Shown one piece after another: positions 2,094-34,595 of a DNA stretch of 37,017 nt; the stretch's first letter is position 1, and each line of letters opens with the position of its first letter. Origin of the DNA: Candidatus Nanopelagicales bacterium (lineage in GTDB: Bacteria; Actinomycetota; Actinomycetes; S36-B12); the NCBI GenBank assembly GCA_023264215.1, contig JALQSY010000002.1:1-37017 (forward strand), written 5' to 3'. A program made the translations under genes and the position numbers. The notes beneath the pieces were generated by a model. That model ran no database searches and was not told the origin of the DNA. It saw only the letters and a program-made list of their open reading frames with translations.

Positions 2094-2975
2094 TCACAGG
2101 CCCGCGAAGAGATCGGTCTCCCGGCCGGCACCGTCGAAGGGTCCCGCCGCGTTGCCCCGCACCAGGCGGAAGTACTCGGTGCCGAAGGCTTCTGCCCCGA
2201 CGTTGTCGGCGAGGGCGAAGAACCCGCCATCGACGGTCACCTGGGTCGCGTGAGCGCGGAGCGCGTCGAGCTTGCGATCAAGGTGCTCAGGCGCATGGAC
2301 GGCCGTCGTCACCAGCGCGTCGTCGGTGGCGAAGGGGATGTCGTCGGGGTCCATCTCGGCGAAGCCGGTGGTCTCCCCCGCCGCACGGAGCTTCTCGATG
2401 CCCTCGCGGACGATGCTGCGCGGGAACGCCGTCCAGTAGATCTTGGCGATATCCCAGGGCTCGCCCAGGTCGGGGCGGAAGGTGCGGGCAGCCGCCAGGC
2501 TCGCGGCGTACATCGACACGCGGTGCGCCTGGATGTGGTCCGGATGGCCGTAGCCGCCGAAGTCGTCGTACGTCACGAGCACCTGCGGGCGGACCTCGCG
2601 GATGATCGCCACCAGATGGGTGGCTGCCTCCAGCAGGTCACTGCGCCAAAACGCCCCCTCGCGGTCGTTGGCAACCGTCCCGGCCATGCCCGAGTCTCGG
2701 TATCGGCCGGGGGCACCCAGCAGGCGCCAGTCCGTCACGCCGAGGATCCCCATGGCCTGGGCGAGCTCGGTCTGGCGGTGCTCGCCGAGCCGGTCCTCCT
2801 TGTCCGAAGCGAGATGCTCGAGGCCCGGGACCAGGATCTCGCCCTCCTCGCCGAGGGTGCAGGTGACGAGGGTGACGCCGACGCCCGCGTCGACGTAGCG
2901 GGCCATCACCGCCCCCGTCCCGATGGTCTCGTCATCGGGATGGGCATGGACGAGAAGGATGCGCCGATCGGTCAT
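2094..2975 (-). CDS. mshB: mycothiol biosynthesis deacetylase MshB
   Basis: This enzyme removes the acetyl group from GlcNAc-inositol to give GlcN-inositol, the third step of mycothiol synthesis, before MshC adds cysteine. The 293-residue product has the LmbE/PIG-L fold. The motif AHPDDE at 11-16 supplies His12 and Asp15 as zinc ligands and Asp14 as likely general base, and GHPDH at 143-147 supplies His147; this matches the zinc ligands of the M. tuberculosis enzyme (His13, Asp16, His147). The start is ATG 2975, because a TACCCT box ends six bases upstream and the protein then begins just before the first beta strand (RRILLVHAHPDDE). The longer frame back to 3056 overlaps the divergent peptidase gene and is not believed. 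A small membrane protein follows after four bases. Confidence 0.95.
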   Translation of the reverse strand: MTDRRILLVHAHPDDETIGTGAVMARYVDAGVGVTLVTCTLGEEGEILVPGLEHLASDKEDRLGEHRQTELAQAMGILGVTDWRLLGAPGRYRDSGMAGTVANDREGAFWRSDLLEAATHLVAIIREVRPQVLVTYDDFGGYGHPDHIQAHRVSMYAASLAAARTFRPDLGEPWDIAKIYWTAFPRSIVREGIEKLRAAGETTGFAEMDPDDIPFATDDALVTTAVHAPEHLDRKLDALRAHATQVTVDGGFFALADNVGAEAFGTEYFRLVRGNAAGPFDGAGRETDLFAGL

Positions 2976-2981
2976 GCGCAC

Positions 2982-2987
2982 AGGGTA
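2982..2987 (-). promoter_or_regulatory. -10 box for leaderless mshB
   Basis: TACCCT on the minus strand ends six bases before the mshB ATG. That spacing would place the transcript start at or beside the A of the start codon. No ribosome-binding site is present. Confidence 0.6.
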
Positions 2988-3022
2988 GTGCCGCCGGATC
3001 CAGCCTCCGGCAGGATGTGCGC

Positions 3023-5134
3023 GTGACTGCGCCCCTGAGCGACGAGACCTACCCACGCCAGCGAGCTCGCACGCGCGGGTTCCGTCTCGGCGCGCCGCGA
3101 TCGTTCACCATCGATCACAAGCGGCGGCGTGTCCTGTTCCTGCGCTCACGCGGGGGCACGGATCCGAACACGTGCCTGTGGTCGCTCGACCTCGCCAGCG
3201 GCACCGAGAGGTGCGTCGTCGATCCCGGCGACCTGCTCGACGACGCCGAGTCGCTTCCCGCAGAGGAACGAGCCCGACGCGAGCGCATGCGCGAGGTGAG
3301 CGCGGGCATCACCGACTACGCGACGGATCGCGAACGCAGCCTCGCCGTCTTCGCGCTGTCCGGTGCGCCGTACGCGGTCGGACTCGAAGGCGCGGAGCCG
3401 GCCCGGCCGCTCGCCGCGCCCGGCCCCGTCGTCGACCCGCGCCCGGACCCCACCGGCACCTGGGCCGCCTACGTCAGCGAGCGAGCGCTGTACGTCACCC
3501 CGCTGAGCGGAGGACCGGCCCGGATGCTGTGCGCGCCCGACGGCGACGACGTCACATGGGGACTCGCCGACTTCATCGCGGCAGAGGAGTTCGACCGCGT
3601 GCGCGGCTTCTGGTGGCTGGCCGACGGCTCCGGGTTGCTAGTGGAGCGCGTGGACGACGCCCCCGTGGCGCAATGGTGGATCGCCGACCCCGCGCACCCG
3701 GATCAGCCGGCCCGCCCGCATCGGTATCCCGCCGCGGGATGCGACAACGCCGACGTCTCGCTATGGCTCGTGCCCGTCGACGGCGGCGCACGCACGGAGC
3801 TCGCCTGGGATCACGCCGAATTCCCCTACCTCGCACGCGTCACCGCGCCCGAGACCGGCAGGCCACTGGTCACGGTGCTGTCTCGCGACCAGCGGCGCCA
3901 GGTGATCCTCGAGGTCGACCCCGCGACCGGGGCGCTGCACCACCTGCGCGAGCGCACCGATCCGGATTGGATCGAGTTGATGCCCGGCGTGCCTGCCCGC
4001 GCCCCGGACGGCCGCGTGGTCGAGATCGTCGCCGACCGGGAGATCGATGCCTACCGCCTCGTCGTCGACGGCTCTCCCGTCTCTCCCTCGGGGCTGCAGG
4101 TGGCATCCGTCGTGGATGCCGGCGAGCAAGACGTCCTCGTCACGGCATCAACCGATCCGACGTATCCGGGCCTGTACCGCATCGGCTACGACGGCAGCAT
4201 CGACAGGTTGAACGATGACGAAGACGCAGTACACGGGCTTCGCGCGGGCAATGTCGTGCTCACCTCGACGACACGACTGTCATCGACCGCCACGGACATC
4301 CGGATCCGGCAGGACGGGGCGCCTGTTGCCGAGGTGACGTCGTTGGCCGAGATCCCGATCATCGCGCCGCGCGTGAGCCTGGTGACCGGGGGCGAGAGGG
4401 AACTCGAGGCGGCTGTGCTCTTCCCCTCCGGCCACGCACCCGGGTCGGGTCGGCTGCCCGTGATCATGTCGCCGTACGGCGGCCCGCACGCGCGGCGGGT
4501 GGTCGCTGCCGGACTGGCGTACGGCACCGATCAGTGGCTGGCCGACCAGGGGTACTGCGTGATCGTCGCCGATGGCCGGGGCACTCCCGGCCGAGGACCG
4601 GCGTGGGATCGCTGGGTGCGAGGGGATCTGGCGACGCCGGCCCTCGACGACCAGGTCGCCGCCCTGGAGGCGGTTGCAGCGGCGTACCCCGACGACGTCG
4701 ACACCGGGCGCGTGGGCATCCGCGGCTGGTCGTTCGGCGGCTACCTCGCAGCCCTCGCCGTCCTGCGGCGGCCGGACGTCTTCCACGCCGCGGTCGCCGG
4801 CGCACCCGTCACCGAATGGCGGCTCTACGACACCGGCTACACCGAGCGCTACCTCGGGCTGCCGCAGGACGAGCCGGACAACTACGACCGATCGTCGCTG
4901 CTCCCTCTCGCAGCCAACCTCACCCGACCGCTCCTGATCATCCACGGCCTCGCCGACGACAACGTCGTCGTCGCGCACACGCTCCAGCTCTCTTCGGCGC
5001 TGCTCGCGGCAGGCCGCCCGCACGCCGTACTCCCGCTCAGCGGCGTCACGCACATGACCCCTCAGGAGGTGGTCGCCGAGAATCTGCTGCGCGCCGAGGT
5101 CGACTTCTTCGCCGATGCGCTGGCCGAGCGCTAG
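3023..5134 (+). CDS. S9 family prolyl peptidase, dipeptidyl-peptidase IV type
   Basis: A 703-residue serine peptidase with an N-terminal beta-propeller (DPP-IV N-terminal type, about 30-420) and a C-terminal alpha/beta hydrolase domain (about 440-703). The nucleophile is Ser570 in GWSFGGYLA, with Asp645 in GLADDNV and His677 in SGVTHM, the order and spacing of family S9. IAAEEFDRVRGFWW in the propeller carries the double glutamate that in DPP-IV holds the substrate's free N-terminus, so release of N-terminal dipeptides with proline or alanine second is the likely activity. No signal peptide or membrane anchor is seen, suggesting a cytoplasmic enzyme. GTG 3023 is preferred because CAGGAT lies six bases before it; GTG 3017 would add two residues. 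It is transcribed divergently from mshB. Confidence 0.9.
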   Translation: MTAPLSDETYPRQRARTRGFRLGAPRSFTIDHKRRRVLFLRSRGGTDPNTCLWSLDLASGTERCVVDPGDLLDDAESLPAEERARRERMREVSAGITDYATDRERSLAVFALSGAPYAVGLEGAEPARPLAAPGPVVDPRPDPTGTWAAYVSERALYVTPLSGGPARMLCAPDGDDVTWGLADFIAAEEFDRVRGFWWLADGSGLLVERVDDAPVAQWWIADPAHPDQPARPHRYPAAGCDNADVSLWLVPVDGGARTELAWDHAEFPYLARVTAPETGRPLVTVLSRDQRRQVILEVDPATGALHHLRERTDPDWIELMPGVPARAPDGRVVEIVADREIDAYRLVVDGSPVSPSGLQVASVVDAGEQDVLVTASTDPTYPGLYRIGYDGSIDRLNDDEDAVHGLRAGNVVLTSTTRLSSTATDIRIRQDGAPVAEVTSLAEIPIIAPRVSLVTGGERELEAAVLFPSGHAPGSGRLPVIMSPYGGPHARRVVAAGLAYGTDQWLADQGYCVIVADGRGTPGRGPAWDRWVRGDLATPALDDQVAALEAVAAAYPDDVDTGRVGIRGWSFGGYLAALAVLRRPDVFHAAVAGAPVTEWRLYDTGYTERYLGLPQDEPDNYDRSSLLPLAANLTRPLLIIHGLADDNVVVAHTLQLSSALLAAGRPHAVLPLSGVTHMTPQEVVAENLLRAEVDFFADALAER

Positions 5135-5319: not shown

Positions 5320-7182
5320 CTACTTCGAGCGCGAGCGCGTCTTGGCCCGGTCGGTGGCGGCGAGCTGGACCTTGCGGATCCGCACGGCCTGCGGCGTGAC
5401 CTCGACGCACTCGTCCTCGCGGCAGAACTCCAGTGCCTGCTCGAGCGACAGCTGCTTGTGCGGGATCAATGGCACGAGTACGTCGCCCGAGGACTGACGC
5501 ATGTTGGTGAGCTTCTTCTCCTTCGTCGGATTCACGTCGAGATCGTCCGATCGGGAGTTCTCGCCGACGATCATGCCCTCGTACACCTCGGTGCCGGGTC
5601 CCACGAACATCGTGCCGCGCTCCTGCAGGTTGGCAAGGGCGAAGCCCGTTGTCGGGCCGGATCGATCGGCGACGAGCGAGCCCGACGGGCGTGTGCGCAG
5701 TTCACCGTGCCACGGCTCGTAGCGATCGAATACGTGGTGCAGCAGGCCCGTGCCACGGGTCTCGGTGAGGAACTCGGTGCGAAAGCCGATGAGTCCGCGC
5801 GCGGGAACGAGGTAGTCCATCCGCACCCATCCGGTGCCGTGATTGACCATCTGCTCCATACGCCCCTTGCGCAGTGCCATGAGCTGCGTGACCACACCGA
5901 GGTAGTCCTCGGGGATATCGACCGAGAGGCGCTCCATGGGCTCGTGGAGCCTGCCATCGATCATGCGCGTCACGACCTGGGGCTTGCCCACGGTGAGCTC
6001 GAATCCCTCGCGCTTCATCAACTCCACGAGGATCGCGAGCTGGAGCTCGCCGCGGCCTTGCACCTCCCAGGTATCCGGGCGCTCGGTGGGCAGCACCCGG
6101 ATCGAGACGTTGCCGACGAGCTCTTGGTCCAGGCGGGACTTGACCATGCTCGCGGTGAGTTTCGTGCCTCCGCTCCTGCCTGCGAGCGGCGAGGTATTGA
6201 TGCCGATGGTCATCGAGATCGACGGCTCGTCGACCGTGATGACCGGAAGTGCTACGGGATCGTCGACATCGGCCAGGGTGTCGCCGATCGAGATCTCGGG
6301 GATACCCGCAACCGCGATGATGTCGCCGGGGCCGGCACTCTCGACAGGAACGCGGTCGAGCGCCTCGGTCATGAGCAGTTCGACGACCTTGGCCCGCTCG
6401 ACGGAGCCGTCGGCCTTCATCCACGCGACCTGCTGCCCCTTGCGGATCGTGCCCTGGTGCACGCGGCACAGGGCGAGCCGGCCGAGGTACGGCGATGCAT
6501 CGAGGTTGGTGACGTGCGCCTGCAGGGGCGCGTCCTCGTCGTACGACGGTGCGGGGATGGCCTCGATGAGGGTGGCGAAGAGCGGCTCGAGGCTGTCCTC
6601 AGCCGGCATGCCGCCGTCGTCGGGACGCTCGCGCGAGGCGCGACCTGCCTTCGCGCTGGTGTAGACGATGGGGAAGTCGATCTGCTCGTCTGTCGCGTCG
6701 AGGTCGAGGAAGAGCTCGTACGCCTCGTCTACGACTTCGGCGATGCGCGCGTCGGTGCGATCGACCTTGTTGATCACCAGGACAACCGGGAGGCGCTTGG
6801 CGAGCGCCTTGCGCAGGACGAAGCGCGTCTGGGGCAGCGGGCCCTCCGAGGCGTCGACGAGGAGGACGACCCCGTCGACCATCTCCAGTCCGCGCTCCAC
6901 CTCGCCACCGAAGTCGGCGTGGCCAGGAGTGTCGATGATGTTGAAGGTCACACCGCCCTCGGGAGCCGACGGACCGGCGTACTTCACCGAGGTGTTCTTG
7001 GCCAGGATCGTGATGCCCTTCTCGCGCTCCAGGTCCATCGAGTCCATGACCCGGTCGTCGACATCCTGGTTGGCGCGAAAGGCCCCGGACTGCCAGAGCA
7101 TGGCGTCGACGAGGGTGGTCTTGCCGTGGTCGACGTGCGCGACGATGGCGACATTGCGGAGGTCCGAGCGGGTGGCAGTCAC
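5320..7182 (-). CDS. typA: translational GTPase TypA/BipA
   Basis: A ribosome-associated GTPase of the EF-G/LepA group that helps 50S assembly and stress or cold adaptation. The 620 residues match the usual family length. G1 is AHVDHGKT (15-22), G2 REKGITI (53-59), G3 DTPGH (84-88) and G4 NKVD (138-141). EF-G-like domains II, III and V follow, and the family's own C-terminal domain ends in a basic tail. The start is GTG 7182, with TAGGGT ending six bases upstream; the TAG of that box is also the stop of the preceding Nudix gene. So typA may be read both from the Nudix/ACT operon and from its own promoter. In M. tuberculosis typA is also near a mutT gene and mshB. Confidence 0.96.
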   Translation of the reverse strand: MTATRSDLRNVAIVAHVDHGKTTLVDAMLWQSGAFRANQDVDDRVMDSMDLEREKGITILAKNTSVKYAGPSAPEGGVTFNIIDTPGHADFGGEVERGLEMVDGVVLLVDASEGPLPQTRFVLRKALAKRLPVVLVINKVDRTDARIAEVVDEAYELFLDLDATDEQIDFPIVYTSAKAGRASRERPDDGGMPAEDSLEPLFATLIEAIPAPSYDEDAPLQAHVTNLDASPYLGRLALCRVHQGTIRKGQQVAWMKADGSVERAKVVELLMTEALDRVPVESAGPGDIIAVAGIPEISIGDTLADVDDPVALPVITVDEPSISMTIGINTSPLAGRSGGTKLTASMVKSRLDQELVGNVSIRVLPTERPDTWEVQGRGELQLAILVELMKREGFELTVGKPQVVTRMIDGRLHEPMERLSVDIPEDYLGVVTQLMALRKGRMEQMVNHGTGWVRMDYLVPARGLIGFRTEFLTETRGTGLLHHVFDRYEPWHGELRTRPSGSLVADRSGPTTGFALANLQERGTMFVGPGTEVYEGMIVGENSRSDDLDVNPTKEKKLTNMRQSSGDVLVPLIPHKQLSLEQALEFCREDECVEVTPQAVRIRKVQLAATDRAKTRSRSK

Positions 7183-30183: not shown

Positions 30184-30227
30184 GCGAGCGGGCACCCGTC
30201 TAGGAGACTAGGCCGGTGCCCGCTCGT
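30184..30227 (+). promoter_or_regulatory. hairpin enclosing the start of the S51/CysRS-tail gene
   Basis: CGAGCGGGCACC (30185-30196) pairs perfectly with GGTGCCCGCTCG (30215-30226), with an extra G-U pair outside. The loop of 18 bases contains the ribosome site AGGAG (30202-30206), and the GTG start (30216-30218) is inside the 3' arm. The fold would hide the start codon. It could also end transcription of DUF805, 12 bases upstream, but no T-run follows. Confidence 0.6.
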
Positions 30228-31469
30228 CTTGTGATCATCGGATCCGGTGAGACATCCCCGACGATGGTCAAGGTGCACCGTGAACTCCTGGCATCCGCCG
30301 GTGACGGTCCAGCAGCGATGCTCGACACCCCCTTTGGCTTCCAGGCGAATGCCGATGACCTCACCGACAAGATCCGCGAGTACTTCCGCGACTCCGTCGG
30401 GGCGGACATCGGCGTCGCCTCCTGGCGCCGTCGCGATGAGGCCCCCACCTCCCGAGAGCGCGCGCTCGCCCTCCTCGGGAGGGCGTCCTGGGCCTTCGCT
30501 GGGCCCGGCAGTCCGTCCTACGCCCTGAGGCAGTGGACCGACACCGCGATGCCTGGCGCCCTGGCTCAGCTCGCGCAGCGTGGCGGGACCCTTGTCATGG
30601 GCAGTGCAGCGGCAGTGACCGTCGGCGTCTCGGCGCTGCCCGTCTACGAGATCTACAAGGTCGGCGAGGAGTCCCGCTGGCTCGCCGGCCTGGATCTCCT
30701 GGGCGCTCTCACTGGACTCAAGGCAGCGGTCATCCCCCATTACGACAACCGCGAGGGCGGCCGCCACGACACGCGCTACTGCTACATGGGAGAGACGAGA
30801 CTCCTGGAGCTCGAGACCATGCTGCCCGAGGATGTCGGCATCCTCGGCGTCGACGAGCACACCGCGGTGATCCTCGATATCCACACGGCCATGGCCGACG
30901 TGCGAGGCAACGGCGGGATGACGCTGCGCTTCCGTGATCGCGAGACCGTCATTCCCGCGGGTGAGTCCATCGCCTTCGACGACATCGCTGCGGCGCTGAG
31001 AGGCAGCGGCTCCGCGGCAGCCGTGGTCATGGCCTTCGCGCCCCGAGCGGAGGCACCCCAGCCGACGGCGGCCAGTTCCGGCCTTCGGGCGGACGCCGAG
31101 GCGCGCCGGCGGGCATTCGACGCCGCCATGGTCGCGGGCGATGCGGACGGCGCACTCGAGCAGGCGTTGGGCCTGGAGCAGGACATCCATGCCTGGAGCG
31201 CCGACACCTTGCAGAGCGACGACATCGACATCGCACGATCGATACTTCGGGCGATGCTCGTCGAGTTCGCGACCGTGGCCCAGAGCGGCCTGCGCGACGA
31301 GTCCGAGGTGATCGGGCCCTTCATCGAGCTCGCGCTGGACGTGCGTCGTCGCGCGCGCGAGGCCAAGGACTTCGCCACGAGCGACGCCGTCCGAGATGGT
31401 CTCGTGGCGCTCGGCATCGAGGTGCGCGACACCCCCGATGGTGCGGCCTGGGAACGCCTAGGTCGCTGA
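30216..31469 (+). CDS. peptidase S51-like (type 1 GATase fold) protein fused to a CysRS-type C-terminal domain
   Basis: A 417-residue two-part protein. Residues 1-275 resemble the S51 family (cyanophycinase, dipeptidase E): ARLVIIGSGETSPTM, WAFAGPGSPSYALRQW, LVMGSAAAVTVG with a possible nucleophile Ser130 (SAAA in place of SAGA), IPHYDN with His175, and GVDEHTAVILD with Glu214. After a linker (276-294), residues 295-417 match the C-terminal helical and tail part of cysteinyl-tRNA synthetase: FDAAMVAGDADGALEQAL, then RRRAREAKDFATSDAVRDGL and GIEVRDTPDGAAW. No aminoacylation core is present. Function is unknown; binding to tRNA or to a cysteine-related partner is inference. The start is GTG 30216 after AGGAG. 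It overlaps the convergent beta-propeller gene by 12 bases. Confidence 0.85.
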   Translation: MPARLVIIGSGETSPTMVKVHRELLASAGDGPAAMLDTPFGFQANADDLTDKIREYFRDSVGADIGVASWRRRDEAPTSRERALALLGRASWAFAGPGSPSYALRQWTDTAMPGALAQLAQRGGTLVMGSAAAVTVGVSALPVYEIYKVGEESRWLAGLDLLGALTGLKAAVIPHYDNREGGRHDTRYCYMGETRLLELETMLPEDVGILGVDEHTAVILDIHTAMADVRGNGGMTLRFRDRETVIPAGESIAFDDIAAALRGSGSAAAVVMAFAPRAEAPQPTAASSGLRADAEARRRAFDAAMVAGDADGALEQALGLEQDIHAWSADTLQSDDIDIARSILRAMLVEFATVAQSGLRDESEVIGPFIELALDVRRRAREAKDFATSDAVRDGLVALGIEVRDTPDGAAWERLGR

Positions 31470-33386: not shown

Positions 33387-34595
33387 ATGACCTACGACGT
33401 GCAGCGCCTGCGCGCCCGCGTGCCGGCCCTCCGCGAGGGGGCTGCGCACTTCGACGGCCCGGGCGGGACCCAGATCCCCGATGAGGTCGCCGACGCCATG
33501 GACGTGACGCTTCGATCGGCCGTCTCCAACAGGGGTCGGGGCACCGCCGCCGAGCGCCGCGCGGACGACATCGTCACCGGGGCCCGGCAGGCGATGGCGG
33601 ACCTGCTCGGCGCCGATCCGCGGGGCATCGTCTTCGGCCGCAGCATGACCCAGATCACGATGGACATCGCGCGCACGCTGGCGCAGGACTGGGGCCCCGG
33701 CGACGAGATCGTCGTCAGCCGCCTGGATCACGACGCCGATGTCCGGCCCTGGGTGATCCACGCCGAGCGGGCAGGAGCGACCGTGCGCTGGGCGGAGTTC
33801 GATCCGGCGACCGGCGAGCTCACCCCCGATGATGTGCTGCGCCACGTCGGGCCTGCGACGCGGCTCGTCGCCGTGACGGGTGCGTCCAACCTCATCGGCA
33901 CGAGGCCCGATCTCCCCGCTATCGCCGCCGGGGTCCACGAGCACGGCGCGCTGCTCTACGTCGACGGCGTGCACCTCACGGCGCACGCACCTGTCGACGT
34001 GGCGGCCATCGGCTGCGACTTCTACGCATGCTCGCCGTACAAGTTCCTCGGGCCGCACCTGGGGGTGCTGGCGGCCTCGCCGAGCCTGCTGGAGCGTCTG
34101 CACCCGGACAAGCTGCTCCCGGCGACCAATGCGGTGCCCGAGCGGTTCGAACTCGGCACGCTTCCCTATGAGTTGCTCGCGGGGGTGACTGCGGCCGTGG
34201 ACGTCCTCGCCGACCTCGTGCCGGATCAGCCGGCCGGAAGCACTCGACGCGAGCGCATTCTGCGCTCCATGACGGCGCTCGAGGAGTACGAGGATGACCT
34301 CCACGCGCGGATGCGGGAGGGCCTTGAGTCGATCCCCGGCATCAGGCTGTACAGCAATGCCAAGGAGCGCACCCCGACGGAGACCTTCACCATCGATGGG
34401 CACGACAGCGACGCGATCTCGGCGTTCCTCGCCGAGCGCGGGGTCAACGCCCCGGCGAGCAACTTCTACGCCCTGGAGGTCTCCCGCTCCCTCGGGCTCG
34501 GCGATGCCGGCGGCGTGCGCGTCGGCCTTGCGCCGTACTCCAGCGCCGAGGACGTCGACCGGCTCATCGCCGGGCTGCGCGAACTCACGTCCTAG
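33387..34595 (+). CDS. cysteine desulfurase-like class V aminotransferase
   Basis: A 402-residue PLP enzyme of fold type I. The cofactor lysine is Lys219 in CSPYKFLGPHLGVL, with Asp193 in YVDGVHLTAH before it. AAHFDGPGGTQIPDEVADAM at the start and SNFYALEVSRSLGL near the end match the 'cysteine desulfurase-like' family (TIGR01976 type) rather than IscS or SufS. In place of the usual DxAQ after the cofactor Asp it has DGVH, and I see no NifS/IscS-type catalytic cysteine loop, so sulfur transfer is doubtful; another PLP reaction is possible. The MDR oxidoreductase gene begins 25 bases downstream. Confidence 0.88.
   Translation: MTYDVQRLRARVPALREGAAHFDGPGGTQIPDEVADAMDVTLRSAVSNRGRGTAAERRADDIVTGARQAMADLLGADPRGIVFGRSMTQITMDIARTLAQDWGPGDEIVVSRLDHDADVRPWVIHAERAGATVRWAEFDPATGELTPDDVLRHVGPATRLVAVTGASNLIGTRPDLPAIAAGVHEHGALLYVDGVHLTAHAPVDVAAIGCDFYACSPYKFLGPHLGVLAASPSLLERLHPDKLLPATNAVPERFELGTLPYELLAGVTAAVDVLADLVPDQPAGSTRRERILRSMTALEEYEDDLHARMREGLESIPGIRLYSNAKERTPTETFTIDGHDSDAISAFLAERGVNAPASNFYALEVSRSLGLGDAGGVRVGLAPYSSAEDVDRLIAGLRELTS

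Follow-up and report, generated by a model that had tools for sequence, protein, structure and literature searches.

A hydrolase-type domain fused to the C-terminal tail of cysteinyl-tRNA synthetase is linked to mycothiol-type genes in bacteria

Results and Discussion

A 37,017-nucleotide stretch of DNA from a Candidatus Nanopelagicales bacterium (assembly GCA_023264215.1, contig JALQSY010000002.1, positions 1 to 37,017 of the forward strand; hereafter the window) carries at 30216..31469 (+) a gene for a 417-residue protein with a GTG start, in which a head resembling S51 peptidases is joined to the C-terminal tail of cysteinyl-tRNA synthetase (CysRS). The gene for this fusion is tied statistically, and often physically, to genes for MshA-like glycosyltransferases and PIG-L deacetylases, accompanied by either an MshC-like gene or a gene that we call GNAT6. 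We propose, with a probability of roughly 0.4, that the fusion is a two-module protein of mycothiol-type thiol metabolism, in which Ser130 would attack the ester bond of Cys-tRNA-Cys and the cysteine would be released or transferred. The presence of an anticodon-reading domain and a serine hydrolase in one protein of presumed thiol makers would fit an enzyme that breaks a cysteinyl bond and is either controlled or assisted by tRNA-Cys. The S51 and CysRS parts are already known; it is their combination that appears to be new. No description of the fusion was found in the literature searched (on CysRS and cyanophycinase, tRNA-Cys trans-editing, and mycothiol), with subscription papers mostly outside its scope, and its members apparently form a large, undescribed bacterial protein family.

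Domain architecture and fold

The protein consists of an S51/peptidase-E-like domain (residues 1-259; 30216..30992 (+)), a linker (residues 270-287; 31023..31076 (+)) modeled at low confidence, with a predicted local distance difference test score (pLDDT) <50, and a CysRS-type helical bundle with an anticodon-binding domain (residues 291-415; 31086..31460 (+)). When the window was scanned in six frames, the gene scored 577 bits against the family profile. The predicted head has the class I glutamine-amidotransferase-like fold of S51 enzymes, and its nearest structure is 6nqc, a stand-alone cyanophycinase-like exopeptidase of an acI-B1 actinobacterium. The cyanophycinase model TIGR02069 gave 20 bits, far under its equivalog cut-off of 126.6. 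In the tail, the CysRS anticodon-binding domain PF23493 (cut-off 23) was matched at 22.7 bits with the whole protein and at 25.3 bits with the tail alone. The cysS profiles align solely to residues 336-415, and the Rossmann catalytic core of CysRS is missing; the MshC model TIGR03447 (cut-off 485.1 bits) gave no match in the NCBIfam search at E<=1. The initial annotation had read the protein as an S51-like head on a CysRS tail with no synthetase core, and the profile matches and the fold bear this out for both halves; the profile search that could have failed to find a CysRS tail returned one. A chance match as the explanation of the tail is ruled out by profile, alignment and structure-level matches to CysRS.

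Predicted catalytic head

In the alignment with 6nqc, Ser130 (30603..30605 (+)), His175 (30738..30740 (+)) and Glu214 (30855..30857 (+)) coincide with the serine of SAGA, the histidine of PH and the glutamate of GIDE, respectively, and are predicted to be the nucleophile, the catalytic histidine and the third member of a triad. Across 57 aligned members (eight of 64 loci were left out by a length filter of 360-500 residues), Ser130, Ala131, Ala132, His175 and Cys189 are invariant and Glu214 is kept in 56. Both the Ser-His-Glu/Asp triad of the S51 family and the change from SAGA to SAAA at the nucleophile elbow, recognized in the initial annotation, are thus conserved through the family, with SAA in 57/57 members. 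According to PMC11078827, S51 enzymes cleave peptide bonds via such a triad.

The fusion therefore shares its fold and the aligned Ser-His-Glu set with S51 peptidases such as PepE, cyanophycinase and 6nqc. It differs from them in the SAAA elbow; in a GPGSP loop (residues 96-100; 30501..30515 (+)), which is invariant in the 57 rows and is aligned with SGGDP of 6nqc; and in an insertion (residues 180-187; 30753..30776 (+)) facing an eight-residue gap in 6nqc, in which Gly181 and the DTR stretch of Asp185, Thr186 and Arg187 are invariant and which is followed by the invariant Cys189 (30780-30782 (+)). It is also set apart by the fused CysRS tail and by the absence of the S51 family PF03575 from its Pfam matches at E<=1.

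CysRS-type tail

Counted along the alignment of the fusion with E. coli CysRS, Arg377, Arg381, Phe386, Asp390 and Arg393 (31344..31394 (+)) correspond to Arg423, Arg427, Trp432, Asp436 and Arg439 of the E. coli enzyme, the first four of these being a set for the recognition of G34; further downstream, Asp405 and Trp412 correspond to Asp451 and Trp458. In the CysRS-tRNA-Cys structure, as described in PMC12684709, Arg427 and Asp436 bond G34, Trp432 stacks on it and Arg423 reaches it via water. Arg377, Arg381, Asp390 and Arg393, together with Asp405 and Trp412, are invariant in the 56 rows bearing a letter, and position 386 is Phe, Trp or Tyr in 56/56, while the majority of the remaining tail positions are variable across the family. 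The same residues are retained by four members with a shortened middle (356-407 residues) and by one in a longer frame. Because the G34-contacting residues of CysRS are conserved in it, the tail likely docks tRNA-Cys, which supports the suggestion of the initial annotation that the fusion may bring a hydrolase to tRNA-Cys. Residue conservation is no proof of docking, as these positions may be retained in CysRS to support folding. No tRNA-Cys gene was found near the fusion across 50 loci or in the window. In comparison with the C-terminal bundle and PF23493 domain of CysRS, the sequence of residues 291-415 and the G34-contact residues are common to both proteins, whereas CysRS has a catalytic core where the fusion has a hydrolase-type domain.

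It is conceivable that tRNA binding has been lost and the tail now mediates dimerization or protein docking, the head being an ordinary acidic-dipeptide or isoaspartyl peptidase. The nearest structure, 6nqc, is a stand-alone exopeptidase, and S51-only (cyanophycinase-like) genes adjoin the fusion gene in three loci (L048:6676-7374 (+), L056:7152-7847 (+) and L098:9240-9950 (-); L and G numbers are our handles for loci and genomes), and in L048 and L056 the two genes overlap, the S51-only gene starting before the fusion gene has ended. An ordinary peptidase would account neither for the conserved base-contacting residues of the tail nor for the linkage to thiol genes described below, and we regard it as very improbable.

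Co-occurrence with mycothiol-type genes

We sampled 198 genomes from the phylum of the Syntrophobacteraceae genome G042, 24 of which encode the fusion. These genomes plus G041, G043 and G050 made up a fusion-positive set of 27, and the first 50, by handle number, of the 174 fusion-free genomes served as controls. The genomes are mostly draft assemblies whose completeness is not stated, and the statistics ignore shared ancestry. The GNAT6 gene (E<=1e-20) was present in 25/27 fusion-positive versus 6/50 fusion-free genomes (3/50 of the latter at E 1e-60, a limit chosen afterwards), the PIG-L deacetylase (E<=1e-50) in 25/27 versus 3/50, and the MshA-like glycosyltransferase (E<=1e-85) in 23/27 versus 3/50; three controls (G070, G085 and G108) have all three genes. 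The profiles used, A2, A3 and A4, came from fusion-linked genes; 12, 10 and 11 of the 27 fusion genomes, respectively, contributed to them and match by construction. With the profile-source genomes left out, the counts were 13/15 versus 6/50 for GNAT6 (Fisher p 1e-7), 14/16 versus 3/50 for PIG-L (p 9e-10) and 13/17 versus 3/50 for the glycosyltransferase (p 4e-8). The glycosyltransferase (E<=1e-60) was also found in 48/54 further fusion genomes, a count over fusion genomes only.

The linkage is physical as well. Among 27 loci from the same phylum, some of them cut by contig ends, the neighbors of the fusion gene include GNAT6 in 14, the glycosyltransferase in 12 and PIG-L in 11. In Syntrophobacteraceae-type loci, the genes that usually come next on the strand of the fusion gene are GNAT6, the MshA-like glycosyltransferase (314 bits against TIGR03449 in L052, cut-off 462.5) and the PIG-L deacetylase. 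The cluster is set on the opposite strand in L098, and two Gfo/Idh genes intervene in L092.

MshC over its cut-off was found in 0 of the 27 fusion genomes, and MshC-like candidates occurred only in G076 and G185. Their scores with MshC (377 and 375 bits) are exceeded by those with the cysS profile (426 and 380 bits), and judged by this they may be tail-less CysRS paralogues. In G076 the candidate adjoins the glycosyltransferase gene and there is no GNAT6; G185 has both. A tail-less CysRS paralogue seen in G041, G042, G043 and G050 (L109-L112) lacks the anticodon domain and carries WNIQDPAM where CysRS has WHIECSAM. It may be the CysRS* described for Desulfobacterales in PMC9437257 and said to charge SelC*. 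As a partner of the fusion it was rejected, as it was found in 4/80 genomes, all of them profile sources.

Relation to MshC and to mycothiol makers

In a sample of 246 Actinomycetota genomes, 20 encode the fusion. TIGR03447 at E<=1e-95, a limit that E. coli CysRS also passes, matched in 57/246 genomes, 15/20 with the fusion versus 42/226 without, and at 1e-110 MshC or an MshC-like gene was present in 14/20 versus 37/226. All 15 matches in fusion genomes lie below the MshC cut-off. MshC over the cut-off occurs in 19 genomes of the sample and the fusion in none of these, which is compatible with chance (p 0.38). In this sample the fusion thus accompanies MshC-like genes below the cut-off and not MshC over it, unlike the representative-locus set, where 13/50 fusion genomes have MshC over the cut-off.

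The association in two phyla bears on whether the fusion is a trans-editing or deacylating factor, which would safeguard translation by clearing Cys-tRNA-Cys that is mischarged or in excess and would take no direct part in making thiols. Such factors usually join a hydrolase with tRNA-recognizing parts, a logic that the fusion would follow. A general translation factor, however, should not track mycothiol-type genes in two phyla, and the distribution (24/198 and 20/246 genomes) is too patchy for one, making this role improbable.

In the window, mshB lies at 2094..3056 (-), 27 kb from the fusion gene, and scored 363.8 bits against TIGR03445 (cut-off 224.35); as genomic context, this match over the cut-off points to the source bacterium being a mycothiol maker. 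The initial annotation had suggested a role in the cysteine or mycothiol economy of such a bacterium. This link is strengthened by the gene neighborhoods, the co-occurrence in two phyla and mshB, and it extends beyond mycothiol makers with MshC: in Syntrophobacteraceae-type genomes and one Syntrophomonadaceae genome, the fusion is found together with MshA-like and PIG-L genes, and MshC over the cut-off is absent.

The Syntrophomonadaceae genome, G048, has the fusion, lacks GNAT6, and encodes on one contig (L145:107-5298) an MshA-like glycosyltransferase, a PIG-L deacetylase and a mycothiol-type INO1 (425 bits against TIGR03450, cut-off 638), all below their equivalog cut-offs; because these three genes lie together, an inositol-based product is likely. 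MshD (E<=1e-15) had no match in nine fusion genomes, eight from Dormibacterota/Chloroflexi and the Acidimicrobiia genome G017 (G013-G018, G021, G022 and G028), of which 8/9 have an MshC-like and 8/9 an MshA-like gene, nor in 12 GNAT6-bearing genomes from the phylum of G042. The product therefore need not be mycothiol itself.

GNAT6 and a possible cysteine-transfer step

GNAT6 (L052:7244-8308 (+) and its orthologues, alignment A2) is a FemX-like double-GNAT protein encoded beside the MshA-like gene. PF13480 was matched in the two members tested, and the model (pLDDT 89) has as its nearest structures the aminoacyl-tRNA-dependent enzymes Sbb17, Sba18 with streptothrisamine, FemX and MprF. By sequence, GNAT6 had no meaningful match in the PDB and a weak FemAB_like Pfam match below the cut-off, so its kinship with FemX rests on the fold. 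It has no sequence kinship with the fusion (hhalign probability 0.2 per cent).

In the Actinomycetota sample, where glycosyltransferase and GNAT6 counts cover fusion genomes alone, GNAT6 is present in 4/5 fusion genomes without MshC-like genes, adjoining the glycosyltransferase in three, and in 1/15 with them (G027). GNAT6 and MshC-like genes thus tend to alternate across genomes. Given this alternation and the predicted fold, GNAT6 is a better candidate than the fusion for a Cys-tRNA-dependent replacement of MshC, with the fusion as a companion of both kinds of genomes. Of all the results, this speaks most strongly against the fusion being a simple cysteine ligase.

These data also bear on whether the fusion itself substitutes for MshC, moving cysteine from Cys-tRNA-Cys to glucosamine-inositol (GlcN-Ins) where MshC is absent. 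G048, G046 and G369 have the fusion and an MshA-like gene with neither an MshC-like match nor GNAT6, as a substitute would predict, but these assemblies may simply be incomplete. Since it is GNAT6 that alternates with MshC-like genes, and 13/50 fusion genomes have MshC over the cut-off, we consider the substitution quite unlikely. A tentative and rather doubtful broader proposal is that MshC-less bacteria make a mycothiol-type thiol from Cys-tRNA-Cys via GNAT6, the fusion or both, with the CysRS anticodon domain of the fusion selecting tRNA-Cys and a serine-hydrolase domain having replaced the synthetase core. A central redox buffer would then be supplied with cysteine from tRNA.

An optional companion of genomes with either MshC-like genes or GNAT6 is also what would be expected of a recycling enzyme. 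The fusion could be a tRNA-Cys-sensing recycler of cysteine, the head acting as an amidase that cuts the Cys-GlcN amide of a mycothiol-type thiol and uncharged tRNA-Cys on the tail activating it when cysteine is scarce, comparable to cyanophycinase and its stores. The shortened bundles would suit a sensor, for which contact with the CCA end is unnecessary. S51 enzymes hydrolyze peptide bonds (PMC11078827), and in CysRS the anticodon site is reported to communicate with the active site (PMC9976931). Two points speak against recycling. The fusion heads presumed biosynthetic clusters, suggesting synthesis rather than breakdown. The cysteine of mycothiol is N-acetylated, and would be unacceptable to an enzyme needing a free N-terminus. 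We rank the Cys-GlcN amide, with tRNA as sensor, as an unlikely second choice of substrate after the ester of Cys-tRNA-Cys, which comes first at less than even odds.

Proposed mechanism

From the fold, the conserved residues and the gene linkage, we infer tRNA binding, the substrate, the chemistry and the direction of cysteine flow as follows. The tail would dock tRNA-Cys much as CysRS does, with the hydrolase head sitting where the synthetase core was lost. Ser130 would then attack the cysteinyl ester of Cys-tRNA-Cys to give a cysteinyl-enzyme; serine peptidases form a comparable covalent intermediate with their substrates. Finally, the cysteine would be released to water or handed to an amine, for example that of GlcN-inositol, for use in the thiol pathway.

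Several known systems resemble this scheme in part. MshC, which ligates cysteine at the expense of ATP in mycothiol synthesis, likewise derives from CysRS and is tied to these pathway genes, but it retains the CysRS core, whereas the fusion has only the bundle and tail and no such core for making cysteinyl-AMP. FemABX-type transferases, whose fold is predicted for the neighboring GNAT6, would share with the fusion the use of aminoacyl-tRNA outside translation; the fusion differs in its S51-type fold and its recognizable tRNA-specific domain. One of them, Orf11, is a natural-product transferase that uses Gly-tRNA to modify streptothrisamine, and AcmF is an AlaRS-like, Ala-tRNA-dependent enzyme, both as described in PMC12945691. 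AcmF and the fusion each have a part derived from an aminoacyl-tRNA synthetase, which in AcmF serves to transfer a tRNA-bound amino acid to a small molecule and in the fusion is proposed to do so. They differ in that AcmF works by an AlaRS-like active site and the fusion has only a synthetase tail.

If correct, the scheme would connect the cysteine-tRNA pool of translation with low-molecular-weight thiol metabolism. It would indicate what a family of thousands of proteins may do, and suggest that Syntrophobacteraceae-type and Syntrophomonadaceae bacteria have pathways of the mycothiol type. It also makes testable the route by which cysteine reaches the amino sugar in bacteria with MshA- and MshB-like genes and without MshC.

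Family size and distribution

At least 7806 homologues were found at E<=1e-3 among 7998 candidates scored, with the tail checked in part of them. The family profile A1 was built from 52 sequences (the query, 11 of 120 listed homologues and 40 loci). In representative genomes we found 64 fusion loci in several phyla; by their record titles they belong to Actinomycetota (Nanopelagicales, Acidimicrobiia and others), Dormibacterota, Chloroflexi, Deltaproteobacteria and Syntrophomonadaceae, and include the isolates Acidithrix ferrooxidans and Ferrithrix thermotolerans (L038 and L043). This survey rules out a single-genome artefact, a concern raised with the first reading of the gene. Another tail type in five matches that appeared to be head-only (G271, G326, G456, G476 and G487) was ruled out, as all five have a CysS_C tail. 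In the G446 match (L123), the contig end cuts the gene and a stop codon is crossed, so that its tail is not assessable.

Other features of the loci

HAD-family and glyoxalase-II-like hydrolase genes repeatedly adjoin the thiol cluster. The HAD-family gene was found at L051:4880-5506 (-), L054:1062-1736 (-), L103:9269-10006 (+), L104:9191-10000 (+) and L140:3611-4216 (+), and we take it to be a candidate for the phosphatase step on N-acetylglucosamine-inositol-phosphate. Two genes for Gfo/Idh/MocA oxidoreductases and one for an alpha/beta hydrolase precede the fusion gene in ten of the 64 loci (L029, L031, L032, L035, L038, L039, L040, L043, L045 and L050), including those of Acidithrix and Ferrithrix. 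In the window, the next gene upstream of the fusion is a DUF805 gene, typA (5320-7182 (-)) lies near mshB, and a cysteine desulfurase-like gene is found downstream of the fusion at 33387-34592 (+), with a TIGR01976 score of 452 bits, over the cut-off.
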